Source: Chitinophaga pollutisoli (GTDB lineage: Bacteria; Bacteroidota; Bacteroidia; Chitinophagales; Chitinophagaceae). From it: a stretch of DNA of 64,000 bases. A model generated the notes under the pieces. That model did no database searches, was not told the DNA's origin, and worked only from the letters and a program-made list of their open reading frames with translations. This document shows, piece after piece, positions 4,574-58,756 of this stretch. The stretch lies in assembly GCF_038396755.1 (NCBI RefSeq), contig NZ_CP149822.1, positions 3,224,001 through 3,288,000 of the forward strand, read 5' to 3'. The position numbers were made by a program, and so were the translations under genes. The first letter of the stretch is position 1. Each line of letters begins with the position of its first letter.

Positions 4574-5047
4574 ATGAATAAACTGCAAATGTTCCGAAAA
4601 CTCCTCCGACCGGAAGCGCTCCTGGTTCTCATGGCCGTTTTCTTCTACATCCGGCAACTGATGGCGGGAAAAGAAGGGTACACCATCCACTTTCATGACA
4701 CCTTTTACTTGATCCGGTGGCCTTGGTGGTTTGCGCCCGGCGCCATGCTCCTCCTCCTATTGGCCTTCATTTACCGGCAAACGCGCAACTACCGCCAAAT
4801 CCAATCCCTGCAGTATTTCCATGTGCTGAGCTTTATTGTCGTACCGGTATTGACGTGGATGCTTTCCCCGGGCTTCCAGCCGGAGGTGCTATCCGGGCAT
4901 CAAAACGGCTCCTTCACGCCTAAAACATATCTGCCTTACTTAGGGTTGGTCATGTTATTATTCCTCGCCCTCGGCCAAACCGCGTTTCTCGCCAACCTCG
5001 CTATCGGGTTCATCCGGGGTAAAAAAAGCGCCGGCCCGGTACAATAA
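4574..5047 (+). CDS. Four-helix membrane protein (local paralogous family)
   Basis: 157 residues from ATG 4574. Features: LLRPEALLVLMA near residue 10; a periplasmic-looking YTIHFHDTFYLIR segment (~37-49); YRQTRNYRQIQSL loop; and the GQTAFLANLAIGFIRGKK ending. The HDTF(Y)(L/V)I motif is familiar from short Bacteroidota membrane proteins of unknown role; I cannot assign a function. It is the most complete representative of the local family. Confidence 0.68.
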   Translation: MNKLQMFRKLLRPEALLVLMAVFFYIRQLMAGKEGYTIHFHDTFYLIRWPWWFAPGAMLLLLLAFIYRQTRNYRQIQSLQYFHVLSFIVVPVLTWMLSPGFQPEVLSGHQNGSFTPKTYLPYLGLVMLLFLALGQTAFLANLAIGFIRGKKSAGPVQ

Positions 5048-5092
5048 CGCATTTGCGCCGCGGTGTCCGTTTTTTTTGCATCTTGCGGGCCT

Positions 5093-6235
5093 ATGCGTAA
5101 AGTTGTTTCTGTCCTGACAATGTGTTTGTTTACTTCGGGCCTCCAGGCCCAGGATTCCATTGACTCCCTCATGGCCGCACGAAAACGCTCGTTCCTCCCC
5201 GTTCCTGTGCTGGGCTATTCCCCGGAAAAAGGGCTGGAATTTGGCGTGGTGGCGCTTTACAGCTATTACGGCGATAAAAAGAACCCTCACCCGCGGACGC
5301 GCAATTCCTCCGCCAGTGTACTTTCCACATTTACCACCAACAGCCAGTTCAAAATCGACCTCCGCTTCGAAAACTGGACCCGCGACAATCTCTGGCACAT
5401 CCGGACCAACTTCCGGTACCACGACTTCCCGCTATATTTCTTTGGCATTGGCGATACCACGCATTACGACAACCGGACGCTGGTGGGCAACCGCCGCTAC
5501 AAGGTGTCCGCGGAAGCCGAACGCCGCGTGTCCCGGCACTTTTACGCCGGGATGTCCCTGCTTTTCCAGCACGACAAATATGATGCAGAAGACCCCAAGG
5601 GCGTGTATCCCTCCATGAACCTGATCGATAAATCGGGCGGATATTACACCTTCATCGGTGCCACCGGCATTTTCGACAACCGCGACAACCAGAATTATAC
5701 GACCAAAGGCTCGTTCGTTCGCCTGAATGTTTCCTGGGCGCCGGACTTCTTCAGCTCCAGGGCGCTGTGGCGGCTCGAGGGCAGGGCCAGCCACTTCATC
5801 CCGCTGTCGAAGAAAAGCACGCTGGGGCTGAATGGCTACGCCGTGTCTACCCAGGGAGATGTGCCGTTTTATATGATGGGGGAGATGGGGAATGATAACA
5901 TCATGCGGGGCTACTACACCGGCCGTTACCGCGACAAAAATTACGTTGCAGCGCAGGCCGAGTATCGATATTTCCTGGATCCCGGCATCCGGATCAAATT
6001 CTGGTTCATCGACACACATCCCACTTTCGCGCTGGCGGGTTTTGCCGGGGCGGGGAGCGTTTTTTCCAACCGCAATATCGACGTTAATCTGAAACCGAAC
6101 TATGGCGCGGGTATCCGCTGGTTTTACGATAAGAGCGCCCGCCTTACCGTGCGCCTCGATTACGGCATTGGTGAACAACGCGCCGGAGAGAAGCGCCAGG
6201 GCGGCTTCTACCTATCGATCGCGGAGGCATTCTAA
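5093..6235 (+). CDS. BamA/TamA-superfamily outer membrane beta-barrel protein
   Basis: 380 residues from ATG 5093; the GTG at 5063 precedes the signal peptide and is less likely. Signal peptide MRKVVSVLTMCLFTSGLQAQ with cleavage near AQ-DS. The rest consists of alternating amphipathic strands rich in aromatic residues and glycine, with the surface-antigen (D15/Bac_surface_Ag) feel: FIGATGIFDNRDN, YTTKGSFVRL, MGEMGNDNIMRGYY, and a terminal aromatic (F). There are no POTRA domains, as in many short Bacteroidota members. A role in outer membrane protein or lipid transport is possible, but no partner gene is adjacent. TTTGCATCTTGC just upstream resembles a -7 promoter element. Confidence 0.82.
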   Translation: MRKVVSVLTMCLFTSGLQAQDSIDSLMAARKRSFLPVPVLGYSPEKGLEFGVVALYSYYGDKKNPHPRTRNSSASVLSTFTTNSQFKIDLRFENWTRDNLWHIRTNFRYHDFPLYFFGIGDTTHYDNRTLVGNRRYKVSAEAERRVSRHFYAGMSLLFQHDKYDAEDPKGVYPSMNLIDKSGGYYTFIGATGIFDNRDNQNYTTKGSFVRLNVSWAPDFFSSRALWRLEGRASHFIPLSKKSTLGLNGYAVSTQGDVPFYMMGEMGNDNIMRGYYTGRYRDKNYVAAQAEYRYFLDPGIRIKFWFIDTHPTFALAGFAGAGSVFSNRNIDVNLKPNYGAGIRWFYDKSARLTVRLDYGIGEQRAGEKRQGGFYLSIAEAF

Positions 6236-34352: not shown

Positions 34353-35792
34353 ATGATCGCTTTCCACCGGCTACTTTTTTCGGGAACTCTTGTCTGTATT
34401 TTCCTGCTGAACGGCGCCCGCGCGCAAGACATTCCGCTTTCTCGGAAGGGATTCGTGGATGTATATTACTGTTATGTGAAATCGTCTGTCGCCCCGGCAG
34501 ATAAATCTTTCACGATGAAATTCGGCGACCCGGACAACCGGCATTACGGCCTCCCCGACCGAGACGCCCTCTCCAACGCATCAACCGTTGTGCTGAGGTT
34601 CCGCGCCTGGACCATCCTCGGCGAACTCGTTACCCATCCAACGCTTTACTGGACCATCAACAAGCAATTCCTTCACGGCCGGAAGCACCGCGTGGAATAC
34701 GCCAAAATCTCCAAATACCCGGATCTCGTCAAACGGTATGAAGCGATCCGCCCTTCCGCCCTCAGGGCCATCGTGGGAATGGGGCTCAACCCGGCCGACA
34801 CCTATGCCGGCGGCGCCTATGCCTGGTTTAAAGTTTCCGATAACGATGTGCTGATCTATCCTTCCGGAAAATCCCCCATGACGTTCCCCACCGCCCCGCT
34901 CAACGCAGGGGAGGGAATGATCGCCCGGTCGGAGGAGGCTCCCTCGGGCCAGTGGTCATTCGTCAGCAACTTCGCCGACTTCAAACCCGTCGAAAAACCC
35001 GCCGAATACTGCTCCCCGCTCCGACAGGCCACCTCCGCCGGCGATCATGCCATGATCCGTGTTGGGGAAGGTCAAGCACGCAAAAACGGTACATCCCGCG
35101 ATCAGAACATCTGGCTGGAACTCAAATGGCCGCTCGATGCCATCGATAATATCCACGACTTGTTCCTGCAATACGAAAACGGCGTTCCTCCTTCGCCGCT
35201 CGAAGAAGCGGATAGCACCCTGGCCGCCGAAAGCCCCCGCGCCTACAACGGCCCGGGCGAATGGAGCGAAGCCTACGAAGACGACCTGAAAGGCGTTACC
35301 GCTTTCGGCGACGGGAACGTCTACGGCCTCAAAGCCAACGGCCGCACCATCGCCACTTTCAGTAGGAAAGTATACGCCAACATCCAGGGCTTCAATAACG
35401 GCGGCAAGTTCTTCGCGCTCATCGCGCGGGAAAGCGCTACCCAAAAATACCCGAACTACCTCATCAACAAAAGAGGTGTGAAGCAAACCATCAACGGCCA
35501 TTCGGAATTCCAATCGGTGCAGCAGCTGGAAGACGGAACCATCGCGGCAGACGCACTGCTGTCTCCCGGCGAATTCCAGAAAAAGATCGCAGTGCGCACA
35601 TTTGGCGGCGGTCAGCCGCAAGGCATTTTCAACACCCTGGCCGAAGCCCGCAACGTGATTGAGAACTATGATCCGGGACAGGGCACTTTCTACGGTTCGG
35701 AAAGGGATTATTCGGTGGACAAGGTGCAGCGCATCATTCTTTCGCCGGAAATGACCGTTCTCTCTTCAAAAACCATGTGGAAAATCCGTTAA
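34353..35792 (+). CDS. Hypothetical secreted protein
   Basis: 479 residues from ATG 34353 (MIAFHRLLFSGTLVCIFLLNGARAQ, signal peptide); the in-frame start at 34179 was rejected because the codons before the signal look random and contain a CATCTTTG promoter-like box. The rest is a soluble extracytoplasmic protein with no domain I recognise; segments such as DQNIWLELKWPLDAIDNIH and QGIFNTLAEARNVIENYD look globular. The next gene starts 12 bp downstream, so they likely act together. Confidence 0.72.
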   Translation: MIAFHRLLFSGTLVCIFLLNGARAQDIPLSRKGFVDVYYCYVKSSVAPADKSFTMKFGDPDNRHYGLPDRDALSNASTVVLRFRAWTILGELVTHPTLYWTINKQFLHGRKHRVEYAKISKYPDLVKRYEAIRPSALRAIVGMGLNPADTYAGGAYAWFKVSDNDVLIYPSGKSPMTFPTAPLNAGEGMIARSEEAPSGQWSFVSNFADFKPVEKPAEYCSPLRQATSAGDHAMIRVGEGQARKNGTSRDQNIWLELKWPLDAIDNIHDLFLQYENGVPPSPLEEADSTLAAESPRAYNGPGEWSEAYEDDLKGVTAFGDGNVYGLKANGRTIATFSRKVYANIQGFNNGGKFFALIARESATQKYPNYLINKRGVKQTINGHSEFQSVQQLEDGTIAADALLSPGEFQKKIAVRTFGGGQPQGIFNTLAEARNVIENYDPGQGTFYGSERDYSVDKVQRIILSPEMTVLSSKTMWKIR

Positions 35793-44379: not shown

Positions 44380-44913
44380 ATGTATCTCACCATCAAGGCG
44401 CTTCATATCATTTTCATCGTGACCTGGTTCGCCGGACTGTTCTACATTGTGCGGCTGTTTGTGTATTTCACGGAAGCGCAGGAGATGGAAGAGCCCCAGC
44501 GCAGCATCCTCCAGGATCAATACCGGATCATGATGAAACGGCTTTGGTTCGGGATTACCTGGCCCTCGGCAATCCTCACGTTGGTCTTCGGTCCGTGGAT
44601 GGCTTTTTTGCTGGGAAGCATTCCGGTTTGGTTGTGGATAAAACTTGCGTTTGTATTGGGACTATATTTTTACTTCTTTTTTCTCCACGGCATTTACAAA
44701 GATCTCCATGCCGGCGTGGTGAAACGCAGCTCTACGCAATTGCGTGTCTGGAATGAGGTAGCCACGATCTTCCTGGTGGCGATCGTTTTCCTGGTGGTGC
44801 TGAAAAGTTTTTTAAGTATGATCTGGTCGATGGTGGGCCTCATCATTTTCACCGCCTGCCTGATGGTAGCGATCAAGGTGTACAAGCGGGTCCGCGAAAA
44901 GAAGAATAAATAA
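44380..44913 (+). CDS. hemJ: Protoporphyrinogen IX oxidase HemJ (CopD-like)
   Basis: 177 residues from ATG 44380 (MYLTIKALHIIFIVTWFAGL); an in-frame TTG at 44371 is part of the promoter. Four membrane helices. HemJ hallmarks: the H in ALHIIF near residue 8, WFAGLFYIVRLFVY, MMKRLWFGITWPSAILTLVFGPWM and the WIKLAFVLGLYFYFFF segment with the conserved Lys. Oxidises protoporphyrinogen IX to protoporphyrin IX in haem synthesis. Monocistronic here. Confidence 0.9.
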   Translation: MYLTIKALHIIFIVTWFAGLFYIVRLFVYFTEAQEMEEPQRSILQDQYRIMMKRLWFGITWPSAILTLVFGPWMAFLLGSIPVWLWIKLAFVLGLYFYFFFLHGIYKDLHAGVVKRSSTQLRVWNEVATIFLVAIVFLVVLKSFLSMIWSMVGLIIFTACLMVAIKVYKRVREKKNK

Positions 44914-44919
44914 CTCGTT

Positions 44920-46305
44920 TTACTTTTTCCCCATTGTCAGCTGCAGGCTAAGGCCGGCAGAATACAACTTCACTTTTCCTTCTCCCACGCCGCCGGCCGG
45001 GATTTTCAGATAGGGGTGCAAGCCCCAGTTCAGTCGTCCTTTCGTGTTTTTTTCCCAGCCCGCGCTGATATTGATCACAGAAAACCAGTGTTGGTTCTGG
45101 TTGCTGAAAACGCGGGTGCGTTTATAATTGTTGGGATAATAGTAGTCGTATTTTTCGCGGAGCATGAAATAAGTGGAAGCGCCAACGCTCACGTTCCATC
45201 GGCCGGAGGGATTTTCAGCAAATACATAATGCACTTGCAGCGGCACATCGATCACATCGCAATCGGCATCGATATCCACATAATTTCCGGGGTAGGGAGA
45301 ATTATATTCTTTTGGAGACGCCTGGTACAACTTTTTTGTGTAGGCGGCCCCGGTACTCAGGTACCATTTGTTATTCACATGGTACCTTATCAGGAGGCCT
45401 CCGGTAAATCCGGCACGTAAACCTGTGAGCGATCCGGTGGCATTTACATCCGGACCGAGGTGGATGCCACCATCGAAACCCTTTCTCCGCGGGGCTTTCC
45501 AGGTTTCATTGGAAAATTCCTTCACCGTATTTGTGTCTGGTACGGCCGGGTTGGCCGAGTTGTTCACAGGGGTGGGCGCGCTGGTGTTTGGAGCATGATT
45601 TTTATCGGACGTGGCCGGCGGAAGGGAGGGGTTATCCACACTTGCCGGAACATGTAAAGCATTTTTATCTTTTTGGGAAGATAAGGGAGCTGTTGAGACA
45701 GTTTTATCCACATCTTTTCTCCTTTCATCCTCCAACTTCGATTTTTGGAAAGTTAAAACGGAAGGAGCGATAGGTTTGTCCACACCTGTTTTAATCGTTT
45801 CGTTCGTAGTCGTTTTATGAAAAGAAAGAATGGAGGCGTTAGCCTGTTCGTTCACATCTTTATTCCTTTCAGAATTTGCCGGCGATTTATTCACCGCATC
45901 CGATTCTTTAAAAATCGGTATTATCGCTTTGCGGGAAGATTTTTCTGTGTTGTTGCTTTCCGAGATTGTCGCACCATCCGGTTTATCCACATTCAATTTG
46001 TTGTCCTCTTCAGGTATTGCATTTTTATCAGGAGATCCATTTTCCACATCATTTTCCGGTACGGTGGTACTGGCGGAATTTTCCGTTTTGGGGGAAGATG
46101 AAAAATTATAGCTGGCAGGGCGTGTGAACCACCACCAACCGCCGAGCCCGAGGATAATGGCGAGGCCGCCGAACCACCACCACATCGGGCGCCGGTTGCG
46201 GGGTTGGTCCAGCAGTTTTTCCATCCGGTCCCAGGCCTGGGGCTCGAACGGAACTTCTGCATCCTGCAGCTTCTTTCGGATATTATGTTCAAACTGTTCG
46301 CTCAT
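44920..46305 (-). CDS. Anti-sigma factor fused to an outer-membrane-type beta-barrel
   Basis: 461 residues. N-terminal cytoplasmic segment (MSEQFEHNIRKKLQDAEVPFEPQAWDRMEKLL), one membrane helix (WWWFGGLAIILGLGGWWWF, ~43-61), a long Ser/Asp/Lys-rich linker (~65-270) with about four degenerate ~25-residue repeats, then a beta-rich domain from ~275 (FDGGIHLGPDVNA, LRAGFTGGLLIRYHV, YLSTGAAYTKKLY) like the PorT/OMP_b-brl family. The 4-bp overlap with the ECF sigma gene shows it is its partner. It would bind sigma inside while the barrel contacts the outer membrane; this last step is inference. Confidence 0.82.
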   Translation of the reverse strand: MSEQFEHNIRKKLQDAEVPFEPQAWDRMEKLLDQPRNRRPMWWWFGGLAIILGLGGWWWFTRPASYNFSSSPKTENSASTTVPENDVENGSPDKNAIPEEDNKLNVDKPDGATISESNNTEKSSRKAIIPIFKESDAVNKSPANSERNKDVNEQANASILSFHKTTTNETIKTGVDKPIAPSVLTFQKSKLEDERRKDVDKTVSTAPLSSQKDKNALHVPASVDNPSLPPATSDKNHAPNTSAPTPVNNSANPAVPDTNTVKEFSNETWKAPRRKGFDGGIHLGPDVNATGSLTGLRAGFTGGLLIRYHVNNKWYLSTGAAYTKKLYQASPKEYNSPYPGNYVDIDADCDVIDVPLQVHYVFAENPSGRWNVSVGASTYFMLREKYDYYYPNNYKRTRVFSNQNQHWFSVINISAGWEKNTKGRLNWGLHPYLKIPAGGVGEGKVKLYSAGLSLQLTMGKK

Positions 46306-47261: not shown

Positions 47262-49130
47262 TCATCGGCCCATGTAGACCATGAGGATTTGCACATCGCT
47301 CGGATTCACTCCGCTAATCCGGCTGGCCTGGCCAAGTGTTCTCGGTTTGATGCGTGTAAATTTCTGGCGCGCTTCGTTCGACAACGAAACGAGTTTCGAA
47401 TAATCGAATGCTTCAGGGATCATCAAATCTTCGAGTTGGCTCATGCGTTGCACGAGTTCATTTTCCTTCTCGATATACACATCATACTTTACCTGGATTT
47501 CCACTTGCTCCAACACTTCTCTTGAATAATTTTCCAGTGCTTTAGCGACTTTAGGTAAGTTTTCGCACATCGAGAAAATGTCGATGCCGGGGCGGAGGAG
47601 GACCTGGTGCGCGCGTTGTTTTTGTGTAAGCGATGCGGAGTTATTGGCTTGCAACCAGGAGTTAGCCTCCTCTGGTTCGAGTGGTAACTCTTTCAAAATC
47701 GCTTTTATTTTTTCTACCCCTTCCAATTTTTCGCGGGTGCGGGTCATGCGCTCGTCGCTCGCGAGGCCAAGCGCATGGCTGCGTTCGGTCAAACGGAGGT
47801 CGGCGTTATCCTGGCGGAGGAGCGTTCTGAACTCCGCGCGCGAGGTGAACATGCGGTAAGGTTCGTCAGTTCCTTTGTTGATAAGGTCGTCGATCAGCAC
47901 CCCAATATAAGCTTCGCTGCGTTTCAAAACGAGCGGCGCCTGCGCCCGGACTTTCAAATGTGCGTTGATTCCGGCCATCAAACCCTGGCAAGCAGCTTCT
48001 TCGTAACCGGTAGTTCCGTTGATCTGACCGGCAAAAAACAGGTTAGACACTTGCTTCGTCTCCAGTGAAAATTGCAATTGTGTTGGTGGGAAGTAATCAT
48101 ATTCGATCGCATATCCCGGGCGGAACATGCGTACATTTTCGAAACCCGGCACGAGGCGAAGCGCTTTAAGCTGGACGTCTTCGGGGAGGGAGGTTGAAAA
48201 TCCGTTCACATAAATTTCCACGGTATTGAAACCTTCTGGTTCCACGAAGAGCTGATGTCTTTCGCGTTCCGCGAAGCGGTTGATTTTATCTTCGATCGAA
48301 GGGCAATATCTCGGTCCGGTTCCCTGTATTCTTCCCTGGAACATAGGCGACCGGTCGAATCCGGTTTTCAGAATGTCGTGTACTTGTTCGGAGGTGTAGG
48401 TGATCCAGCAGGAGCGTTGTTGTTCCGGGCGGATTTTTTCTACATCCATATAGCTAAAACCAACGATTTCATCGTCGCCTTTTTGTTCTTCCATTTTGGA
48501 ATAATCGAGGGAGCGGCCATCGATACGGGGAGGTGTTCCTGTTTTGAGACGGTCGCTTTCGAAGCCGAGGGAAACGAGTTGTTCAGTGATTCCGGTTGCC
48601 GCTTTTTCTGCAACGCGGCCGCCGCCGAACTGTTTATCTCCGATGTGAATGACGCCGTTGAGGAAAGTGCCGTTTGTGAGTACAACAGCCCTGGCAGAAA
48701 TTTCATGTCCGAGACCGGTGATCACGCCCCGGCAAACGCCATTTTTGATGATGAGCCCTTTCACCATATCCTGGTAGAAGTCTACGTTCGGTGTATTCTC
48801 CAGAGCTTCGCGCCATTTGGCGGCGAAAAGCATGCGGTCGTTTTGGGTGCGGGGGCTCCACATAGCAGGCCCCTTACTACGATTCAGCATGCGGAACTGG
48901 ATCATGGATTGGTCGGTCACGATGCCGGAGTACCCTCCAAGGGCATCAATCTCACGAACGATCTGGCCTTTTGCGATACCACCCATGGCGGGATTGCAAC
49001 TCATTTGGGCAATCGTCTGCATGTTCATGGTAACGAGGAGTACCCGGGAGCCCATGTTGGCGGCGGCAGCAGCGGCTTCACAGCCGGCATGTCCGGCGCC
49101 TACTACAATAACATCGTAAACTGGGAACAT
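47262..49130 (-). CDS. mnmG: tRNA uridine-5-carboxymethylaminomethyl modification enzyme MnmG
   Basis: 622 residues, full length. FAD-binding start YDVIVVGAGHAGCEAAAAAANMG, MSCNPAMGGIAKGQIVREIDALGG, LKTGTPPRIDGRSLDYS, FFAGQINGTTGYEEAACQGLMAGINA and the C-terminal helical domain with ALENYSREVLEQVEIQVKY. With MnmE, it installs the cmnm5 group at tRNA wobble U34. mnmG (gidA) is often near bacterial replication origins, which fits parS and oriC nearby. TAACTTTG on the minus strand at 49150-49157 is its probable -7 element. Confidence 0.96.
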   Translation of the reverse strand: MFPVYDVIVVGAGHAGCEAAAAAANMGSRVLLVTMNMQTIAQMSCNPAMGGIAKGQIVREIDALGGYSGIVTDQSMIQFRMLNRSKGPAMWSPRTQNDRMLFAAKWREALENTPNVDFYQDMVKGLIIKNGVCRGVITGLGHEISARAVVLTNGTFLNGVIHIGDKQFGGGRVAEKAATGITEQLVSLGFESDRLKTGTPPRIDGRSLDYSKMEEQKGDDEIVGFSYMDVEKIRPEQQRSCWITYTSEQVHDILKTGFDRSPMFQGRIQGTGPRYCPSIEDKINRFAERERHQLFVEPEGFNTVEIYVNGFSTSLPEDVQLKALRLVPGFENVRMFRPGYAIEYDYFPPTQLQFSLETKQVSNLFFAGQINGTTGYEEAACQGLMAGINAHLKVRAQAPLVLKRSEAYIGVLIDDLINKGTDEPYRMFTSRAEFRTLLRQDNADLRLTERSHALGLASDERMTRTREKLEGVEKIKAILKELPLEPEEANSWLQANNSASLTQKQRAHQVLLRPGIDIFSMCENLPKVAKALENYSREVLEQVEIQVKYDVYIEKENELVQRMSQLEDLMIPEAFDYSKLVSLSNEARQKFTRIKPRTLGQASRISGVNPSDVQILMVYMGR

Positions 49131-49997
49131 TATTTGAATTTTGAAAGTGCAAAGTTAAGTCAAAAGATTGATGGGCAGGGGATAAGTTGGGAATTCAGAT
49201 GCCAGCATTTCACAAGCGTTGTATTTTAAGGAAGAATATGCTGTCACTTCCTAAACAAACGATATTTGATCCCTGAAGGGGAATATTTGAATAGAAGGAA
49301 CAAGTCTATATTAGGAATATTTTCTGCTGAAAAGGAGAAGGATACCAGGATTCAAATAGGAGGAAGGTGAGAAAAATGCATTTCATATAGGCGAGAGCGA
49401 CCCATGAATAGATCCGATTTACCCTTAAAACTGCAAAGAACCCGAAGCCGGACTTCTCCCCGCGCTATTAAAACCGCTTAGAACGAGACGCAAGCGCCTA
49501 AGATAGATGAATTGCAACGTTATCCCATAGCAACCCGTTAAACAAATACCTTTATTTATCGAAGTTTATCAACACTTACATACTTCGTTGTTAGTTTCCC
49601 TAAGCTTCCCCACTCTTAAAACTGAAATCCAAAAAGGAACCTGGTCCATTCATTGTTTCCTTATGAATGCCCCCTTATCTTATATGACATCCCTCGTCGA
49701 CACCTGAAAAACATTCATGTGTAATACCCACGGTAGGTGATACAGCAAACTATTTTAACAAATCACACTTAATTTGAAGGAAACCGGCAATATCAACAGG
49801 ATTAAATAAGGCAAGCATTGGGGCAAACTCACTGTAAGCAATTGGAATCATCTAAATCTACCCATATCCTATAAAATATATCTTAGTAAACGCCTAATTC
49901 GCTCACACTACTAACCAATAAACAATTATATCAGAACAATTAGAGCTAAAAAGACTGTAAATATGAGTAAGCGCTAAATATTCATTTACTATAGTAA

Positions 49998-50013
49998 TGT
50001 TCCACGTGGAACA
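49998..50013. promoter_or_regulatory. parS centromere site 1
   Basis: TGTTCCACGTGGAACA, a perfect 16-bp palindrome matching the chromosomal ParB-binding site (consensus TGTTNCACGTGNAACA). One of four in 2.3 kb. Confidence 0.9.
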
Positions 50014-50180
50014 ATTGTCCCTCTGAATGATCAATAAATTCACCAGTAGCTATAACACACAACATAAATACTATTAGAAACAACTGCAAATTGGTCTATT
50101 TTCTACTATATAAACTCTTATCTCAGTTCAAATGACTGGCAAGGACCACCGATTATACGGAATCCACTCCTATCCCACAT

Positions 50181-50196
50181 TGCTCCACGTAGAACG
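50181..50196. promoter_or_regulatory. Degenerate parS-like site
   Basis: TGCTCCACGTAGAACG differs from the perfect palindrome at three positions, and lies 183 bp from parS site 1. Possible weak ParB site or a decayed copy. Confidence 0.5.
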
Positions 50197-50678
50197 CTAC
50201 ATCTTAATACCTAAAGTATCCCGCAGCCATTATCATTAACAGCATTGGGTGTCTCATCTGCAAATACAGACGATAAACGTCATAAGCCAGTACTATCTAT
50301 CTGATTCCCTCCCAAGGGGTCTATCTACTCTAAATTTGGCACCCCTGACTATATACTAATACGACATTATTTCAAATTACCTGATTCAAAGTTGTGTTGA
50401 AAACCGAAAAACTTAGGCTGGACTTTATCCCTAGGGTACATCTATGGAAAGGTTAGACTCAAATGTTCTATGCCCAGCGGGAATCCGGCCGTCACATGCC
50501 ACAACAAACACATGTTAACGTCCACTTGTTGCTACCTATATAATCATGAACCATATATACCCGCGATCTCGTAGCATTGGCTTAACATGTATAATCTCAC
50601 CCCAAATTAACCTATAAGCCTAGTGTAGACAGCTCATAAACGCCTCCAACCTTGCAAATCCATGATCCTAATCTATGA

Positions 50679-50694
50679 TGTTCCACGTGGAACA
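50679..50694. promoter_or_regulatory. parS centromere site 2
   Basis: TGTTCCACGTGGAACA, identical to site 1, 681 bp further right. Confidence 0.9.
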
Positions 50695-51028
50695 TCTCAT
50701 ATTAATGTAAAGCAGGGCATTATTCACTATAAAACTGTTTTTACACCCGATATATCCCAGAGTTCCTCGACATAGAAGAAGTCATAAGGCAATCCTACTC
50801 CAATGTGATGAATTCCATACTTGAAGGAAGTATTGTCAACTGATAACATACACATGCATCCGTGTCGAACGTCTGTTCATTACTCCAGAGCAACAATAAT
50901 CTCATAATGAAAACAACAAACCAAAATTCCATTATTACATACTACAAGAAAAGCCAAAACTACCATTCAATATTCTAAGGACCATCACCATTCCCCTAAA
51001 AACCCTGGTAAAATCTGCCAACTGCCAT

Positions 51029-51044
51029 TGTTCCACGTGGAACA
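51029..51044. promoter_or_regulatory. parS centromere site 3
   Basis: TGTTCCACGTGGAACA, identical to sites 1 and 2, 350 bp beyond site 2. Confidence 0.9.
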
Positions 51045-52253
51045 TCCTTTTCTAAAGAAATCCTAGCTTTAATTACTCCTAATAACCGCTTATCCATAGA
51101 AACTAAACATTTAAACCTATGCCCCGTCCGAAGGCTTACCTCATATAATCACCGGAAAAGTGAAATGCCAATAGCCCATAAAGCAAGCATAAGGAGAGTT
51201 CGTATCTTTAAGACAGCTGTAACTGTACCGTTTCCCTCAGATTTATAAGAAAAGAAGTAGGGAAATAGACCAAATTCAGGTGCTTTGACGCCAGGAAGGG
51301 TAAGCAAAGTATGGAAGTACTAATTGAAAGCAAAAAAGCGCGATTTTATACTGCCCTTTACCAAGTAGGTGAGCTCAGTCCTATGTTGCCAATCAATAAA
51401 TCACGTCATTTCCAAATCCGTATCAGGAGGTGCTTAACTCAAAAAACAATACCCTGACTGATATTCAAAAGAACCGAAAAGTTGCCCAATAACCCACTTA
51501 TTAAGGGAATTTGATCCGAATGTGACCTGATAGCCCATCTTAACACCATAACATCTGTACAAATTGCGCAAAATACCTTGGGTTTGAAGCAAGAAGAATA
51601 TGTAACATCCATCGCAAACAACTAGAAAATAAACAACAGAGGAAATCCCGAGAAGGCCATGCTCAGCCTGGTATTAGATGGCAACTTAACATCACCCTTA
51701 GTAAAATGCCAACGTCTCCAGAGTATTCCATCCCTATACCTTTGATTCTGCCTAGGCTTTAACAAACATAACATCTCTGCCATCCAAACTCTGATGGCCA
51801 ATAATATGTCACGCCAATAATACGTTTCGGCTTCTGGCTTCCAACATACCCAATTAACAAACCTCTTGGCTTGTTTGAACCATAATTCATATGGATACTA
51901 CTGCATGATAAAAAAGTATAGGAAAGCATCCAGGCATGAAAGCTAAATTCGCACCCGGCAAATCTAAACCAAGTGACTTGCGTAGCTGAAATCCAAGAGG
52001 GATGCAAGACAACATATCTGACCAGGAAAGCCATTCGCAAATGTAAATCAGTGTGTTCCTGAAGAAGCGATGAAGTGATAAGGAAATCGGGTCATGCACC
52101 GTGAATTGCCTTAGAAAGCCAACATACTAGCCGCGGTGAAATCCATTTCAAATCCCAGGACACATAATAACCAAATACCTGCATCACCAAGGTTTAAAGA
52201 TGAGTAGATAGAAGGCGAATATAAGTATACAGCTATAGCGGGGAATACATATA

Positions 52254-52280
52254 AAAAAAGCTCCCAGTCCCGGGAGCTTC
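52254..52280 (-). terminator. Rho-independent terminator for ybeY
   Basis: AAGCTCCC / GGGAGCTT stem around AGTCCC, with a run of seven A on the left to give a minus-strand U tract. Sits 40 bp downstream of the ybeY stop. Confidence 0.88.
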
Positions 52281-52293
52281 AATCTTTATAATA

Positions 52294-52309
52294 TGTTCCA
52301 CGTGGAACG
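52294..52309. promoter_or_regulatory. parS centromere site 4
   Basis: TGTTCCACGTGGAACG, 15 of 16 positions of the palindrome, between the ybeY stop codon and its terminator. Confidence 0.85.
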
Positions 52310-52319
52310 TAAGTCAAAT

Positions 52320-52745
52320 TTAATGTCCGAAATACAGACGAAGGTTCTCATCCTCCTTTTCACGCATGAGGATCTCTTCCTGCTTTGACTTGTCCCTATA
52401 CCCACATAAATGTAAAGCACCGTGGAAAATTACGCGGTGCAGCTCATATTCTTCCGTTACGCCAAATTCCCTTGCATTCTCCAGCACCCGATCAATACTG
52501 ATGTAAATCTCACCCTCCGTAATATCCGGATTCTCCGAAAGTTCAAAAGTAACGATATCCGTGTATGTATCATGCTGGAGGAATTCCTGGTTGATCTTTA
52601 ACAGATACTCATCCGAACAAAAAACATAATGAAGTCCCTTCAATCTCCGATCCTCCCGTTTGAACAAATCCTTTAAAAATGCCTTCAGCTTTGTACGCTC
52701 CTTCAGCCGGATCTTTACCTCGTGTGCTATAAAATTGATTGCCAT
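52320..52745 (-). CDS. ybeY: Endoribonuclease YbeY (16S rRNA maturation)
   Basis: 141 residues. The zinc site HGALHLCGYRDKSKQEE near 110-126 gives two of the three His ligands; the third is replaced by Asp (GYRD), which is normal in Bacteroidota YbeY where GYDH is found elsewhere. Also TYTDIVTFELSE and GEIYISIDRV. Involved in 16S 3' end maturation and ribosome quality control. Its transcript contains parS site 4 in the 3' untranslated region. Confidence 0.92.
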   Translation of the reverse strand: MAINFIAHEVKIRLKERTKLKAFLKDLFKREDRRLKGLHYVFCSDEYLLKINQEFLQHDTYTDIVTFELSENPDITEGEIYISIDRVLENAREFGVTEEYELHRVIFHGALHLCGYRDKSKQEEILMREKEDENLRLYFGH

Positions 52746-52876
52746 TGTGTAAAATTATGGTGAAAAAGCGTTTCATGATCCCCCTTTTTTGCATTATGAC
52801 CGTGGAGCGGTACCTTTGCCACGTAATAGCTGGGACGATAGTCACAGATTGGTTTTAACTCGCTCAACAAATAGTT

Positions 52877-53107
52877 ATGATTAAACTTTCTTCCCTCACA
52901 CTTGGCAAAAGCGCGGTCATCCGGGAATTTGAAAAAAGCGATCTCCATATAAAACTCATGGAAATGGGATGTGTTCCGGGGGAAACAGTTAAGATTGAGA
53001 AAATCGCTCCGCTGGGTGATCCGATTTGCATCATCGTAGCCGGATACAATTTATCTCTCCGCAAAACCGAAGCCGATCATATCTGGGTAGAAGAAGTTGC
53101 TGTCTAA
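52877..53107 (+). CDS. feoA: FeoA domain protein
   Basis: 76 residues, an SH3-like FeoA: KLSSLTLGKSAVIREFEKSDLHIKLMEMGCVPGETVKIEKIAPLGDP and IIVAGYNLSLRKTEADHIWV. Short FeoA proteins assist FeoB in ferrous iron uptake. The only feoB in the window is at 20738-22861, without an adjacent feoA; whether these two work together is unknown. Divergent from ybeY (131-bp gap). Confidence 0.88.
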   Translation: MIKLSSLTLGKSAVIREFEKSDLHIKLMEMGCVPGETVKIEKIAPLGDPICIIVAGYNLSLRKTEADHIWVEEVAV

Positions 53108-53342
53108 CCAGCATAACCCAATTTCTACTTTCCAGCCGTCTCCATCGAGATGGCTTTTTTATTGACTGGGGCAGGAGGTGAACTATCTCCCAGCAATCCC
53201 ACAATGCGTACATATACTATTACACAGGACGATTACAGAATCCATCTTCCTCCATCAATCTCGCTGAAATACAATTTAACTATGCTGATGAAAAAAACGG
53301 TATTCACAATCGACGAAGCAAAAACCGGTATTCCTTCACTTA

Positions 53343-54590
53343 CAGACATATCTTCCCCTGTCCGAGATAATCCTCAGAAAAAAATCGCCCGCATGATCTT
53401 TCGCGGAGAAAATCATTACCTGAAAACCGGCTGTATGGAATCCGGATATTCCCGATAAGACATCACTTCTCCATCCTGAAAATCATTCAGAAAAAATCTG
53501 TCGTCTAAAAAATTTACAGCGGGAAACATCACAAGTAACGACCGCCTGGATCATGCAACTATCACAGCATAAAAACAGGCATCACATCGTACAAGACATA
53601 ACTTTCCCAGTCCGAAAATCATTCAGAAAAAAAGTCCTGATCCAATACTCCTTCGGCGGAAAAAATCTTCCGATCATTATAAAACGCCGCACGAATCTAT
53701 CACTTCATCCGACACTCCCAATACGTCGTGTAAAGACATAACTTCTCCAACCCGAAAAAATTTTTAGAAAAAGACACGCCATAAAACAAGATTCCCTCAG
53801 CGGAAAAGCCCATCTATTAACAAGCGCCAGCACGCATCTATCACTACGTGTAACGCCATGTAAAGAAATCAGGCACTACATCTCCATCCCGAAAAAATCC
53901 TCTCACAACTTGTTCATCCAACATCCCGGCAGGATCACCAATAACCTGAAGCAGATTCCTGGTATCATATCTATCACTATAGACACCAATCATTCTTCAC
54001 TACAAGACATAGCCTACCAAGTCCGAAAAAAATGTTCAGAAAAACAAAACAACAAACGATTATTCAGTTGCTGTGCACCTTAAAAAATCATCCCAGTCAA
54101 ATTGCATCTATCACTGCAGTAACCGGGTTTCAATTCCAAAAGCCTTCACTTCCAAACCGAATAATCTCCCATAAAAATTCTTCCAAAATCTCCAGGTGAA
54201 AAAGCCGTAGGAAATAATCCTGGAAAATGTATCTATCACTACTTAGTCCATATACATTTCCTACAAAACATACCTTCTCCACTCCGAAAAAACTTTCAGA
54301 AAAACTGCATCCGAAAAGATCTCCGGCGAAGAATACTCCGGCAAATTATCCGGTGCAGCATCTATCACTACAAGCACCTTCATCTATCTACCTGACAAGA
54401 CATACCTTCTTCACCCCGAAAAAAAATTTCAGAAAAACCTACTTCCCTAAAAGACATCCGGCGGAAAAATCCCCGGGTCAACAAATCCGAATACCCGCAT
54501 CTATCACTGCAGGAATCCATTTTCCACCGACCCGACAAGGCACAACTTCTCCATCCCGAAAAATCTTTCAGAAAAAATTCCATCTCCGGA
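53343..54590. repeat. Degenerate tandem repeat array, ~134-bp unit, about ten copies
   Basis: Two motifs recur in fixed order. Motif A, GCATCTATCACTRC, has clear copies beginning near 53557 (weak), 53695, 53836, 53969, 54106, 54231, 54360 and 54499. Motif B, close to AAGACATAACTTCTCCA followed by CCCGAAAAAA and TTTCAGAAAAA, begins near 53343, 53457, 53593, 53732, 53870, 54004, 54140, 54268, 54399 and 54538. Steps run 114-141 bp, mean ~134. Several units also carry CCGGCGGAAAA-like sequence. The step is not a multiple of three and frames are not kept, so it is not a repeat protein. No dyad or spacer pattern typical of CRISPR. Confidence 0.85.
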
Positions 54591-54824
54591 TCCGGGAGAC
54601 CACTTCAATTATCCTGAGACCTGCTCCCAAAAGAGAGATTACAGGATTATCGAAGCGGCAAATGTATCGGATGGTTCGCCTGAACCAAAGAAATAGTTAT
54701 TCATGTGGAAAAATCCATCGTCATTGTAGGGTAAAATTGCTTCCCGGAAAAGCTAATCTTCCGAAAGTCAATGCCACACTGTACTGGTAATATGTACCAA
54801 TTTGCTATTCAGAATTATACAACA

Positions 54825-54855
54825 AAAAAACCGCCCCTTTCGAGAGACGGTTTTC
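54825..54855 (-). terminator. Rho-independent terminator for nadA
   Basis: On the minus strand, CCGTCTCT CGAA AGGGGCGG pairs fully when G-U pairs are allowed, followed by a run of seven T. Located 21 bp downstream of the nadA stop. Confidence 0.75.
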
Positions 54856-54875
54856 AATATCGGAAACATCCAGTT

Positions 54876-55850
54876 TTACAATCCTGCCTGGGCGCTGATT
54901 TCCAGCATCCGGTCGATCGGGCGCTTCGCCGCAACGCGCAGCGCCTCGTCCATCGTGATTTCCGGTTGTTCATACTCCATGCACAAATACAGTTTCTCGA
55001 GCGTATTCAGCTTCATGTGCGGACAATCGTTGCAAGCACAGGCATTGTTCGGTGGCGCGGGAATGAACGTCTTATTCGGGTTCTCCTTCTGCATCTGGTG
55101 CAAAATCCCGGTTTCCGTTACCACGATATATTCCTGCGCATCATCGCGCTGCGTGAATTTGAGCAGTCCCGTCGTGGAACCAATGAAATCCGCGATCGCC
55201 AGGACGGGCGCTTCACATTCCGGGTGCGCGATAATCTTGGCTTTGGGATGCCGCACTTTGAGTTTCGTGATCTTTTCCAGGCTGAAAATCTCGTGCACCA
55301 TGCAGGCGCCGTTCCACAATACCATGTCGCGGCCGGTCTTCTTCACCAGGTAGGAGCCCAGGTTACGGTCTGGCGCGAAGATGATGGGTTGGTCTTTCGG
55401 CACGGCTTCGATAATCTTTTCAGCGTTGGAGCTGGTGCAGATGATGTCGGAGAGGGCCTTGATGCCGGCGGAGCAGTTGATATACGAGATCACCAGGTGG
55501 TCCGGGTATTGCGCTTTAAAACGGGCGAAAAGCTCCGGCGGCGCACTGTCGGCCAGCGAGCAGCCGGCTTTCAGGTCGGGGAGGAGCACTTTTTTCTGCG
55601 GGCTGAGGATTTTCGCGGTTTCCGCCATGAAGTGAACGCCGGCGAAAACGATGATGTCGGCATCCGTTTTGGCGGCCTGCTGGCTAAGCCCGAGGCTGTC
55701 GCCTATATAATCGGCCACGTCCTGGATATCGGGTTCCTGGTAATAATGCGCGAGGATGATGGCGTTTTTTTCTTTTTTGAGCCGCTCGATTTCAGCAAAG
55801 AGATCCAGGCGTACGTCCACCTCCATATCCAGAAATCCCTTTTTCTGCAA
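54876..55850 (-). CDS. nadA: Quinolinate synthase
   Basis: 324 residues. [50 protein letters not shown] (first cluster Cys), [30 protein letters not shown], and [10 protein letters not shown] near the end supply the [4Fe-4S] ligands. Condenses iminoaspartate with dihydroxyacetone phosphate in NAD synthesis. Transcribed leftwards away from the proposed oriC; nadB and nadC are not in the window. Confidence 0.96.
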
Positions 55851-55959
55851 ATTTTTTTTGCTTCCGTTAACTCCGTAAACATAGCTATAGATTAAATTTT
55901 CTTTTTAAAAAGAAGAAAAAGCCCACTACTATTAGGGGTGTGAATTTGGGGGAAACTTG

Positions 55960-56520
55960 TTTTTTCCTCCTGATACAAATGTAGTTGTTATTATTTTGTT
56001 GCGCGCTATCCACAGGAAATTAACAACCGTATTCCGCGCCCCTGCTGATTTTCGTCCGCTTTATCCACAGTGTTGACAAGAAATTTACTGAACAACTTTT
56101 TCGTGGGCATGGTATTAAGAAAGTGTTAAAACAACCGGGTTTTTCACAGCCGGAATTCCCGGACCGGATCCGGCCAGAAAAACAAATTTAGTTTTACCTC
56201 CACCGGAAGGCGGCTTTTCCCACAAAAAACAGCCTTAACAACAGGTTTATCCACAACAATTGTGGGAAAACAACCCCCTTTTTCTGAAATCGTAAAAGAC
56301 CGGAAATTTTCATGCGTTTTCAGTTTTTAAGGCCGATTAATACACAATTTGTTGTGGATTATATGGATGTATTGCTTATTTTGTGGATAACCGCAACATC
56401 CGTTCCGCGAAAAAAATCTCCCGAAACTGTACACCGGCGGTCGTCTAAACCTGATTGATAACAACCAATACCTGTGCATTAAAACTTTATGAAATGTGGA
56501 TAATGTGTGAATGAAGGATA
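55960..56520. other. oriC: Chromosomal replication origin (oriC), DnaA-box cluster
   Basis: Perfect DnaA boxes TTATCCACA at 56061-56069 and 56247-56255 (plus strand) and TGTGGATAA at 56382-56390 and 56495-56503 (minus strand). One-mismatch boxes: CTATCCACA 56006-56014, TGTGGATTA 56353-56361, TGTGCATTA 56473-56481; weaker TTTCCCACA-type boxes lie near 56215 and 56260. Boxes face inward from both sides. AT-rich segments at 56300-56390 and 56570-56640 are candidate unwinding elements. The region lies between divergent nadA and ppiD with no gene in 800 bp. dnaA itself is not in the window. Assignment is inference from box density. Confidence 0.85.
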
Positions 56521-56586
56521 AAAACCACCCCTCCTTAAATCGCTCAAACCCTCTACTGTATTGGCTTTTGGGGTAATAAAAGCTAT

Positions 56587-56618
56587 TTTGCAGTTACAAT
56601 TAAATTATTCTATTTTTG
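56587..56618 (+). promoter_or_regulatory. Promoter of ppiD
   Basis: TTTG at 56587-56590, 20 bp, TATTTTTG at 56611-56618. Close to the consensus with one extra base in the spacer. ATG follows at 56648. Confidence 0.78.
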
Positions 56619-56647
56619 CTACCTCTTAAAATCAGACTATATATTAT

Positions 56648-58756
56648 ATGTCAGTTATTCAGAAAATCAGGGACAAATACGCTGTCTGGATCATCGTATT
56701 GATCTGCCTGGCCATTGTGAGCTTTTTATTACAAGACGTATTTTTCGGTAGATCCGGTATGAGCCAGTCCAATGTTGTGGGCAAGGTGAACGGAGAAGAG
56801 CTGACCATCGCGGATTATCAGCGCCGGATCGAATTCACCACCGACCAGATGCGCCAGCGCATGCCGGGGCAAACCTTCGACGAAGAAGCGCAGCAGTATT
56901 TCCGTGAAGAAGCCTGGAACGGTTTCCTCCGCGAAAACATCATGGCGAAACAGTACGAAGCCCTGGGTATCGTAGTTACCGACGCCGAACTGGTAGATGC
57001 CTACAGTGTGAACAACCCGCACCCCATGGTTCGCCAGCAATTTTCCAACCGCGAGACCGGCGCTTACGATCCTTCCCTTCTGCAGCAATTCAACCAGGCT
57101 GCCCGGCAGGATCCCAACATGAAAGCGCAAATCCTGGCTTTCGAACAATCCATCGTCGAATACCAGCAAAACCTGAAATATTACTCCTTAATAAATAAAG
57201 GTATCTATTATCCTAAGTGGCTCGCCAAGCAACAACAGGAAGATGCCGCCAAAAACGCCAACATCGGTTACGTGCAGGTGCCCTACGCTACCATCGCCGA
57301 CAGCACCATCAAACCGACCGATTCCGAACTCAACAAATTCATCGCGGATAACAAAGCCATGTTCGAAGTTCCGGAAGGCCGTAAAATCGAATACGTTTCT
57401 TTCGATGTGATCCCCACCGCTGCAGACTCCGCAGCCGCTTTCGCCGAAATCCAAAAACTGAAGGCTGAAATGGATACCACGCCCGATGTTACCCAATTCG
57501 TAAAACTCAACTCCGAATACAACCAGTACGACGGTTACGTTTCCCGCAGCGCCATCCAGGTACCGAACAAAGATTCGATCATCGACCTGCCGAAAGGCGC
57601 TTCCTTCGGTCCTTATATTGATGGTAACATGCTGGTATACGCCAAAATGCTCGACCGCAAAAACATGGCCGACACCGTGAAAATCCGCCAGGTGCTGATC
57701 TTCGCGCAACAAGGCAGCGATTCCATCGCCAAAAGACAAGCTGACAGCGTGGAAGCAGTAGTACGCGGCGGCGGCGACATTGCAGCCATCGCGTCAGCGA
57801 TCAGCCAGGACCCTGCCGCCAAAGAAAACGGTGGTGAAGTTACCCTGGCCCCCCACACCGATGTTCCCGCTGAACTGGCAGAAGTGAAAACCTTTGCTTT
57901 CGAAGGAGCCACTGGCGCCGTTAAAACCGTGAAACTTCCCATCGGCTATGCTGTAGTGAAAATCACCGAGCAGAAAAACATCGGCCCCGCGTTGAAAATC
58001 GCGTACCTCGGCAAACGTGTAGACGCCAGCTCCGCTTCCAGCAACGACATGCTGACCGCAGCCAACGAATTCGCAGCCGCCAACACCAACCGCACCGCTT
58101 TCGATAAAACCGTTCAGGAAAAAGGCCTCAACAAACGGATTGCAGAAAACATCCAACCGATGGACTTCGTGCTCCCCGGCCTGGGTTCCTCCCGCGAAAT
58201 CGTAAGCTGGGCTTATAGCGCCGGCAAAAACGAAGTAAGCCGCGTGTTCTCGCTGGAAGACCGATTCGTGATCGCAGTGCTCACCAGCATCCGCGAGAAA
58301 GGTACCGCTCCGCTCGACGAGGTTCGCCCGACCGTAGAAGCGGAAGTACGTAAACTGAAGAAAGCCGAGCAGATCATCGCTAAACTGGGTACGCCCGCCA
58401 ACCTGGATGCAGCTGCCAAAGCTACGAACCAGCCGGTGCTCACCGCAGAGGGCGTTAACTTCTCCTCTTCCTACGCTCCGGCGCTCAACTTCGAACCCCG
58501 TGTGATCGGCGCAGCTTTCAACAAAGCCTGGGGAACCAATAAAGTTTCCGCTCCCATCCAGGGTCAGGCCGGCGTGTTCGTGATCCAGGTGAATAACTAC
58601 ACCACCGCCGACGTTCCCGCACTCGACTACGCCCAGCAAAGCCAGGCGTTCGAAGGTGGCATCCAGCAGCTGATACAGCAGCAGTTGTTCCAATCCGTGC
58701 TGAAGAAAAACAGCAGCGTGAAAGACAACCGCGCTGAATTCTACCGAGGCAACTGA
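56648..58756 (+). CDS. PpiD/SurA-like peptidyl-prolyl isomerase chaperone
   Basis: 702 residues. A single N-terminal membrane anchor (YAVWIIVLICLAIVSFLL, ~11-28) followed by SurA_N-like helices with VVGKVNGEELTIADYQRRIE. A parvulin-like domain is near 345-450 (VKIRQVLIF, GGGDIAAIASAISQDPAAKENGGEV, LPIGYAVVKITEQ), with another parvulin-like or helical region toward the C-terminus. Anchored periplasmic folding factor like PpiD, which assists outer membrane protein folding. Starts right beside the proposed oriC. Confidence 0.9.
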   Translation: MSVIQKIRDKYAVWIIVLICLAIVSFLLQDVFFGRSGMSQSNVVGKVNGEELTIADYQRRIEFTTDQMRQRMPGQTFDEEAQQYFREEAWNGFLRENIMAKQYEALGIVVTDAELVDAYSVNNPHPMVRQQFSNRETGAYDPSLLQQFNQAARQDPNMKAQILAFEQSIVEYQQNLKYYSLINKGIYYPKWLAKQQQEDAAKNANIGYVQVPYATIADSTIKPTDSELNKFIADNKAMFEVPEGRKIEYVSFDVIPTAADSAAAFAEIQKLKAEMDTTPDVTQFVKLNSEYNQYDGYVSRSAIQVPNKDSIIDLPKGASFGPYIDGNMLVYAKMLDRKNMADTVKIRQVLIFAQQGSDSIAKRQADSVEAVVRGGGDIAAIASAISQDPAAKENGGEVTLAPHTDVPAELAEVKTFAFEGATGAVKTVKLPIGYAVVKITEQKNIGPALKIAYLGKRVDASSASSNDMLTAANEFAAANTNRTAFDKTVQEKGLNKRIAENIQPMDFVLPGLGSSREIVSWAYSAGKNEVSRVFSLEDRFVIAVLTSIREKGTAPLDEVRPTVEAEVRKLKKAEQIIAKLGTPANLDAAAKATNQPVLTAEGVNFSSSYAPALNFEPRVIGAAFNKAWGTNKVSAPIQGQAGVFVIQVNNYTTADVPALDYAQQSQAFEGGIQQLIQQQLFQSVLKKNSSVKDNRAEFYRGN

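Follow-up and report, generated by a model that had tools for sequence, protein, structure and literature searches.

The repeat array lies in a 64,000-nt stretch of the Chitinophaga pollutisoli genome (the window), between nadA and the convergent gene feoA, with YbeY encoded beyond; all three neighbours were recognised by their Pfam families (Table 1). A repeat search detected nine copies of a 45-nt motif (at least 60% identity) between positions 53338 and 54576. These copies are 60–82% alike to the reference copy and are spaced by 114–140 bp apart from a single double step of 271 bp; the motif GCATCTATCACT is repeated as well. At E≤0.05, a covariance model (R1) recognised ten window units between 54561 and 53307, of which the final one is weak (E 0.036), while the array was missing from the output of Tandem Repeats Finder. 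Across the 6.08-Mb genome there are four exact copies of GCATCTATCACTRC, all within the array; with one mismatch allowed, one further copy was found in the array and three elsewhere, and the reversed control gave one. The existence of the array, as claimed in the original prediction, is thus confirmed, and so is its position near DnaA boxes and parS: DnaA-box forms are clustered at 56061–56503, 1.5 kb from the array, and the nearest parS-like site (52294–52309, one mismatch) is 1.0 kb off. The extent had to be revised: the lower end reaches to about 53307, and with leader and promoter included the locus runs up to 54713.

Table 1. Features of the array locus in window coordinates.
Feature	Position	Strand	Remarks
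nadA	54876..55850	-	upstream gene, same strand as array; Pfam NadA
Terminator-like hairpin between nadA and array promoter	54855-54826	-	terminator scan
22-nt block TTTTTCCACATGAATAACTATT, upstream of promoter	54692..54713	-	genus-wide exact search; leader alignment A3
DnaA-box form TTTTCCACA inside 22-nt block	54704-54712		box match
Promoter-like TTTG-N19-TACATTTG, Bacteroidota form, reading into array	54659..54689	-	pattern match
Predicted start and structured leader (~80 nt)	54577..54658	-	global fold; partly conserved; start site inferred
First repeated linker TTTTTCTGAAAG	54565..54576	-	motif B profile search
Rod unit 1	54455..54561	-	apical loop 54500-54507; R1 E 4.3e-20; R1 seed
Rod unit 2	54320..54421	-	apical loop 54361-54368; R1 E 2e-14
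Rod unit 3	54189..54289	-	apical loop 54232-54239; R1 E 2.8e-15; R1 seed
Rod unit 4 (diverged motif B)	54061..54162	-	apical loop 54107-54114; R1 E 5e-5
Rod unit 5	53923..54028	-	apical loop 53970-53977; R1 E 1.8e-8
Rod unit 6	53794..53894	-	apical loop 53837-53844; no clear linker ahead; R1 E 1.7e-16; R1 seed
Rod unit 7	53650..53757	-	apical loop 53696-53703; R1 E 4.5e-20; R1 seed
Rod unit 8	53513..53617	-	apical loop 53558-53565 (GTGATAGT); R1 E 9e-12
Rod unit 9, shortened, without GTGATAGA loop	53398..53481	-	R1 E 1.1e-7
Rod unit 10, degenerate end unit, without GTGATAGA loop	53307..53367	-	R1 E 0.036; motif B match E 2.2e-7
Other linkers	starts near 54437, 54304, 54044, 53772, 53631, 53495, 53382	-	motif B profile search
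feoA	52877..53107	+	convergent, downstream of array; Pfam FeoA

Among 79 genomes of the genus, strong DNA similarity to the array was seen in G006, G011, G036, G042, G064 and G072, and the array gene is found beside nadA in seven of the 79, those closest to C. pollutisoli. Five other carriers could be read across the locus; all have the array in the nadA-feoA gap as in C. pollutisoli, with gaps of 1.8–2.2 kb. Seven of 23 non-carrier nadA loci show feoA in the flank, adjacent to nadA without an array (gaps of 340–941 bp); at the other 16, feoA lies outside the fetched flank and these were judged by genome-wide searches only. With a profile of motif B, 60 copies were recovered at E≤1, of which 59 pass E≤0.1, and every one lies on the nadA-sense strand of an array-bearing gap. 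The profile found none in the seven short gaps and nothing better than E 1.4 on the opposite strand. Neighbouring units are 91–142 nt apart, mostly 125–142, with larger steps where the motif of a unit went unrecognised. At E≤0.05, R1 matched nine of the 79 genomes, comprising six arrays and three single weak matches (G026, G027 and G050); the latter were judged to be chance hits, and the DNA there reads as mostly protein-coding. G072 gave no match at this threshold but a partial one at a contig end, and the 8-kb locus L084, in which R1 found no match, ends about where the array starts.

PpiD is 97, 87, 87, 84 and 84% identical to that of C. pollutisoli in carriers with an intact copy, 80–89% in the separate pieces of the broken G064 copy, and at most 66% in every non-carrier genome. 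This gap, a measure of identity rather than a tree, suggests that the carriers form one tight group. In wider samples searched at E≤0.001, R1 matched three genomes in a family sample of 394 (101 genera) and three in an order sample of 396 (164 genera). The three family matches are the three order matches, all in the genus Chitinophaga; the array was not found in the other sampled genera with these stricter filters, at which weak matches are lost. The expectation that related genomes carry the array therefore held for the closest relatives, where it occupies the same nadA-feoA gap and is neither absent nor reduced to decaying duplicates, and failed for 72 of the 79 genus genomes.

Some further observations were made on these genomes. 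In G064 (65% complete by listing) nadA and ppiD match in pieces, which may reflect sequencing errors. Several more repeats around TAATAATATATAG follow the array in G006 (L060, ~4920–5260), and shorter traces are present in G042. The gidA-ybeY stretch of the window (49231–52250; 3 kb without evident genes) contains three exact parS-like sites (TGTTCCACGTGGAACA) at 49998, 50679 and 51029, the fourth, at 52294, lying beyond it. Five parS-like sites are found in the corresponding gap of G006 (~4.4 kb), four each in those of G042 (~2.9 kb) and G011 (~3.4 kb), and two in the ~1.1-kb gap of the non-carrier G002. Six DnaA-box forms were also noted within 1.4 kb at 44633–46048; five of them fall in ORF 44920–46305 and may be a by-product of its repeated VDKP/VDNP codons.

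Read on the minus strand, the region from 54576 to ~53307 consists of ten units with a period of ~134 nt, each predicted to form a rod-like hairpin of ~100 nt, and U-rich linkers UUUUUCUGAAAG connect the rods. The elements of a rod are, in order: (i) a closing helix, in which UCGG and, 2 nt further, UGGAGA pair with UYUCCG CYGA; (ii) a UAUGUC segment, bulged in part; (iii) a unit-specific middle helix; (iv) an internal loop; (v) an apical helix capped by a loop of 8 nt. In eight of the ten window units this loop is GUGAUAGA, seven times exactly. The two ordered motifs originally described can be placed in this structure: motif A, which on the minus strand includes GTGATAGA, is the antisense of the apical loop, and motif B that of the linker, the closing strand and UAUGUC. 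To these a third element has to be added, motif C (TCCGCYGA), whose pairing partner is a portion of motif B. Motif A was found in most window units and is absent from the last two.

Unit statistics were based on 58 units from six genomes, namely those anchored by motif B; window unit 4 is outside this set and also bears the loop, which brings the window count to eight of ten. GUGAUAGA occurs exactly in 29 of the 58 units and with at most one mismatch in 33 (7/9 in C. pollutisoli, 6/10 in G042, 7/11 in G006, 6/8 in G064, 3/9 in G036 and 4/11 in G011), compared with 0 and 1 in the reversed-sequence control. These counts cover all 58 units, unlike a set of 25 of 59 motif-chosen units in which high loop conservation was partly due to the choice. 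UAUGUC is present with at most one mismatch in 44 units and motif C in 26. In single-unit folds, GUGAUAGA forms the entire apical loop in 24 of 33 cases, and UAU stays largely unpaired in 23 of 44.

The sequences flanking the loop differ between units and are nevertheless complementary to each other. When the arms of 38 loops (at most one mismatch; three off-place matches were kept) were compared with randomly dealt partners, they matched their own partner with z 9.4. Single-unit folds of the 58 units had a mean z of −2.28 in sense and −0.85 in antisense orientation. The middle helix is likewise specific to the unit: matched pairing energy, calculated for 25 of the 58 units, gave z −6.75, a value reached by none of 10000 shuffles. 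Complementarity alone does not identify the strand, since the arm test returned z 8.9 with A-C counted instead of G-U, and the middle-helix test z −5.2 in antisense. Predicted transcripts of 1250 nt were more stable than 20 shuffles each in the sense orientation (z −6.8 in C. pollutisoli, −7.6 in G042, −8.2 in G006, −4.2 in G064, −4.6 in G011 and −5.7 in G036), with antisense values between +1.4 and −2.8 in the six genomes. In their global folds the exact GUGAUAGA loops closed in 6/7, 5/6, 7/7, 1/4, 2/4 and 2/3 cases, respectively. A standard single fold of 54358–54497, a piece that ignores unit borders, was unremarkable on both strands (z −0.39 and −0.83).

Compensatory changes were analysed in two alignments. 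No consensus fold emerged for either strand when 59 full units were simply aligned with MAFFT; loop anchoring and use of a subset resolved this. The resulting alignment A1 (20 units) holds 18 of the 22 seed units (L060:3959-4062, L061:3660-3759, L061:3782-3886 and L061:4049-4152 were dropped by hand) plus window:54189-54291 and L062:3049-3151, a hand selection that favours the structure. The arm-partner test and the fold z scores of the 58 units are independent of this selection. In A1, 89.9% of cells were paired compared with 80.0±1.2 after shuffling, 42 cells were double-changed compared with 17.8, and covariation was 0.422 compared with 0.237 (reached by 0/500 shuffles); common ancestry of the units inflates such shuffle tests. 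Sliding the partner by 1–3 columns lowered covariation to 0.10 or less. Double changes were seen in all nine apical pairs and in only two of 11 closing pairs. Unguided RNAalifold recovered the closing and apical helices, and 13 of its 21 predicted pairs had double changes. Alignment A2, which has been fitted to the model, comprises all 49 model matches, three chance hits among them, but none of the window units; here double changes occurred in 16 of 20 pairs compared with 12.3 after shuffling (5/500 reach), with covariation of 0.348 compared with 0.207 (0/500). Compensatory changes thus exceed both the shuffled and the slid controls, most strongly in the apical helix.

The type of mismatch tolerated in the helices was informative with regard to the strand. 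In A2, 12 A-C cells were observed compared with 41.6 expected, 153 G-U cells compared with 165.8, and 123 other mismatches compared with ~189 (by subtraction). The corresponding values in A1 were 2 compared with 9.3 for A-C and 74 compared with 76.4 for G-U, so that observed-to-expected ratios are 0.92 to 0.97 for G-U and 0.2–0.3 for A-C. As a G-U pair exists only in minus-strand RNA and corresponds to A-C on the other strand, selection appears to see minus-strand RNA. Judged from sequence, the functional strand is the minus (nadA-sense) strand.

The depletion of A-C with G-U retained disfavours two functions that had been proposed for the array, a binding platform for a nucleoid or segregation protein and a replication-control titration locus. 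A double-stranded DNA platform of this kind, for a replication protein or for DnaA titration as well, is highly improbable. DnaA boxes and parS sites are nearby and the motifs are ordered, but the motifs turned out to be a loop and helix strands, the covarying stems are needless for duplex binding, and the A-C depletion is strand-asymmetric. For titration of DnaA, the interval 53300–54720 offers a single DnaA-box form, located in the promoter block. Tandem imperfect palindromes might also act as hairpins once the DNA is single-stranded, in the manner of attC, primosome or cruciform structures; G-U counts as a mismatch in DNA and yet occurs at close to its expected rate, unlike A-C, which leaves this idea with very little probability.

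Comparison of the C. pollutisoli and G042 arrays showed how conservation is distributed. The promoter block was 85% identical, the loop 79%, the closing 5' strand 75%, the UAUGUC segment 72%, the linker 70% and motif C 59%, compared with 44% for the apical stem arms, 46% for the remainder and 48% for the sequence upstream of the promoter; loops and motif positions were found through their own motif, which favours them. The close pair G006-G042 showed a small contrast (for example 88% in the closing strand compared with 77% in the remainder). The assumption of selection on the motifs against diverged spacers was upheld for the motifs; the "spacers" are largely helices which change while still paired. 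That the units are functionless tandem duplicates in neutral decay is the least probable of the readings considered. It would fit the degenerate end units, the loss of loops in G036 and G011 and the small motif/rest difference of G006 and G042. It does not fit the compensatory changes in A1 and A2, the exact upstream block, or the loop-to-arm difference between C. pollutisoli and G042, even though location of the loops by motif favours the latter.

Bacteroidota promoters follow the consensus TTTG, then TAnnTTTG, and both elements are retained upstream of the array in seven aligned leaders (A3). In the window this form was matched eight times compared with 1.5 expected; on the minus strand there were two such matches, one upstream of unit 1 and the other, far from the array, at 35442. 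Sigma-70-type matches were at chance level (four compared with 4.5 expected), with one on the minus strand inside the array. The adjoining 22-nt block occurs exactly once in each of the seven array carriers and exactly in none of the other genomes among the 79; with three mismatches there were 11 matches in ten other genomes, and reversed controls matched too. Five named public genomes carry the block, and it was absent from the viral contigs searched. A convincing terminator of the array was not found: the scan gave a weak minus-strand match past the array (53113–53098, five pairs) and terminator-like matches in the leader and unit 9, with five in total on both strands compared with 2.1 expected. 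Neither scan revealed a promoter or terminator that recurs in each unit. Of the proposed array of small RNA genes the RNA is thus supported, as one transcript with one promoter-like site and not as ten genes.

These ends also bear on the view that the array is a cis element, either a long nadA 3' region or a means of antisense or convergent control of feoA, which we regard as quite unlikely. The array does have the strand of nadA and converges on feoA, in the same order in C. pollutisoli and five other carriers. However, a terminator-like hairpin after nadA is followed by a separate conserved promoter-like site, nadA and feoA are adjacent without an array in seven non-carriers, and ten copies would be superfluous for a cis switch.

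The coding potential of the locus was considered as well. In most units GGAG is followed ~5 nt later by ATG, which might indicate an array of leader-like small ORFs; ATG is present in 42 of the 58 units and GTG or TTG in eight more, the frames often reading MS.... This interpretation was rejected and has hardly any likelihood left, since the predicted peptides range from 2 to 54 aa with neither length nor sequence in common, the start codon is not universal (ATA or ATT in 8/58 units), and GGAG sits in the closing helix. On the plus strand a 187-aa ORF (54227–54790) spans the array without a Pfam match; it is probably open only owing to the G/T-rich opposite strand. Another plus-strand ORF (53150–53458) had no Pfam match either. 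A CRISPR array, whose pre-crRNA resembles the present case in its periodic hairpins on one transcript, was dismissed because the repeats are merely 60–82% like the reference copy and the interval between them is a unit-specific helix instead of an unrelated spacer.

Comparative sequence evidence makes it very likely that the array is a gene for a structured noncoding RNA of ~1.3–1.4 kb, encoded on the minus strand. The best explanation overall, with chances close to even, is that this RNA displays its many loops to an RNA-binding protein. In the proposed mechanism, one transcript would start from the promoter-like site upstream of unit 1 and present many copies of one loop and UAUGUC site on interchangeable stems. 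Such a multivalent RNA would bind many copies of an RNA-binding protein, as CsrB and RsmZ titrate CsrA, with a different partner. A recurring tip, freely changing stems, about ten repeats and one promoter are the expected look of a multivalent binding RNA. That one long G/U-rich transcript binds or titrates the protein as a decoy or scaffold is plausible at slightly less than even chances. The absence of the loop from 25 of the 58 units, mostly in G036 and G011, speaks against the mechanism, and so does the fact that the majority of the genus manages without the array.

RsmZ is bound by up to five protein dimers. CsrB, CsrC and RsmZ share with the array the principle of one RNA with many repeated hairpin sites. 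They differ in that no CsrA (PF02599) was detected in the C. pollutisoli genome by a search that was positive in three of 14 control genomes. Moreover, the GGA of the array (GGAGA) is paired as the 5' strand of the closing helix, its loop is GUGAUAGA and not GGA, and it consists of tandem ~134-nt domains over more than 1 kb. GOLLD, ROOL and OLE, which form homo-oligomeric complexes and are not known to be made of tandem units, resemble it as long, highly structured noncoding RNAs; the array RNA, in contrast, is a chain of similar rods. LhrC of Listeria comprises multicopy tandem sRNAs with conserved loop motifs, encoded by separate genes each having a promoter and a terminator. The array shares its tandem related copies and differs in that its units have no promoter or terminator of their own that was seen. 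RbpB is an RRM-type RNA-binding protein. According to PMC11697453, it acts with paralogous sRNAs in Bacteroides, and FopS consists of 14 paralogous sRNAs with their own promoters at several loci. The array resembles FopS and GibS with RbpB in its host phylum (Bacteroidota), in its paralogous RNA units and in its promoter-like site of the sigma-ABfr type. Its layout sets it apart, with one promoter-like site and a head-to-tail arrangement. An RRM protein, as in the FopS/RbpB system, is present in C. pollutisoli: PF00076 gave two matches above cut-off, at 1502424–1502633 and 5441640–5441849, and the two RRM-domain proteins are candidate partners.

No CsrA, two RRM proteins and the RbpB precedent in Bacteroides led us to place a protein decoy or scaffold first and sibling sRNAs second. 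According to the latter explanation, a precursor would be cut in the U-rich linkers to release about ten sibling sRNAs that pair with mRNAs via GUGAUAGA (target complement UCUAUCAC). This is a possible but rather doubtful alternative. Units of ~134 nt with conserved linkers and a common loop in 33 of 58 units would suit it, as would the paralogous sRNAs at work in Bacteroidota (PMC11697453), and fixed loops on variable stems suit a base-pairing seed equally well as a protein site. Against it, per-unit promoters or terminators were not seen in two scans, the rods are extended structures with tight pairing, and a target was not found. The single 23S locus searched contains no exact complement of the loop; matches tolerating G-U numbered four on its plus and one on its minus strand. 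As to rRNA itself, a second 23S copy at 4052535–4054390 of the genome was matched in pieces only, and a 16S model that was positive in nine of 14 controls had no match in this genome; masked sequence may be the reason.

No family of Rfam 15 matches the array. At E≤1 there was one match in 49000–57000 and one in L059–L063, each to a leader family; neither lies in the array, and both score far below the gathering cut-off. A literature search, with subscription papers mostly outside its scope, retrieved no description of such an RNA for Chitinophaga and no paper on tandem hairpin RNAs. Long multi-domain noncoding RNAs are, to our knowledge, few in bacteria. Returning to the protein-binding RNA, its oriC-proximal position would mean a high gene dosage, and its expression might be tied to replication by the DnaA-box form of the upstream block, which is a guess. 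It is unlikely, though conceivable, that a chain of more than 1 kb of self-similar, freely diverging rods with a recurring tip acts as a multivalent scaffold, coupled to replication or oriC dosage through an origin-linked promoter with a DnaA-box form. At the same low probability, such a scaffold would be a new architecture of bacterial regulatory RNA, following by analogy the logic of repeat-domain lncRNAs. The analysis turns an unexplained origin-proximal repeat into a defined, testable RNA gene with a strand, a promoter form, a domain structure and a species range, and its 58 natural units, drawn from six genomes, are equivalent to a mutational scan of a single RNA domain that may help to find its partner and the rule of recognition.
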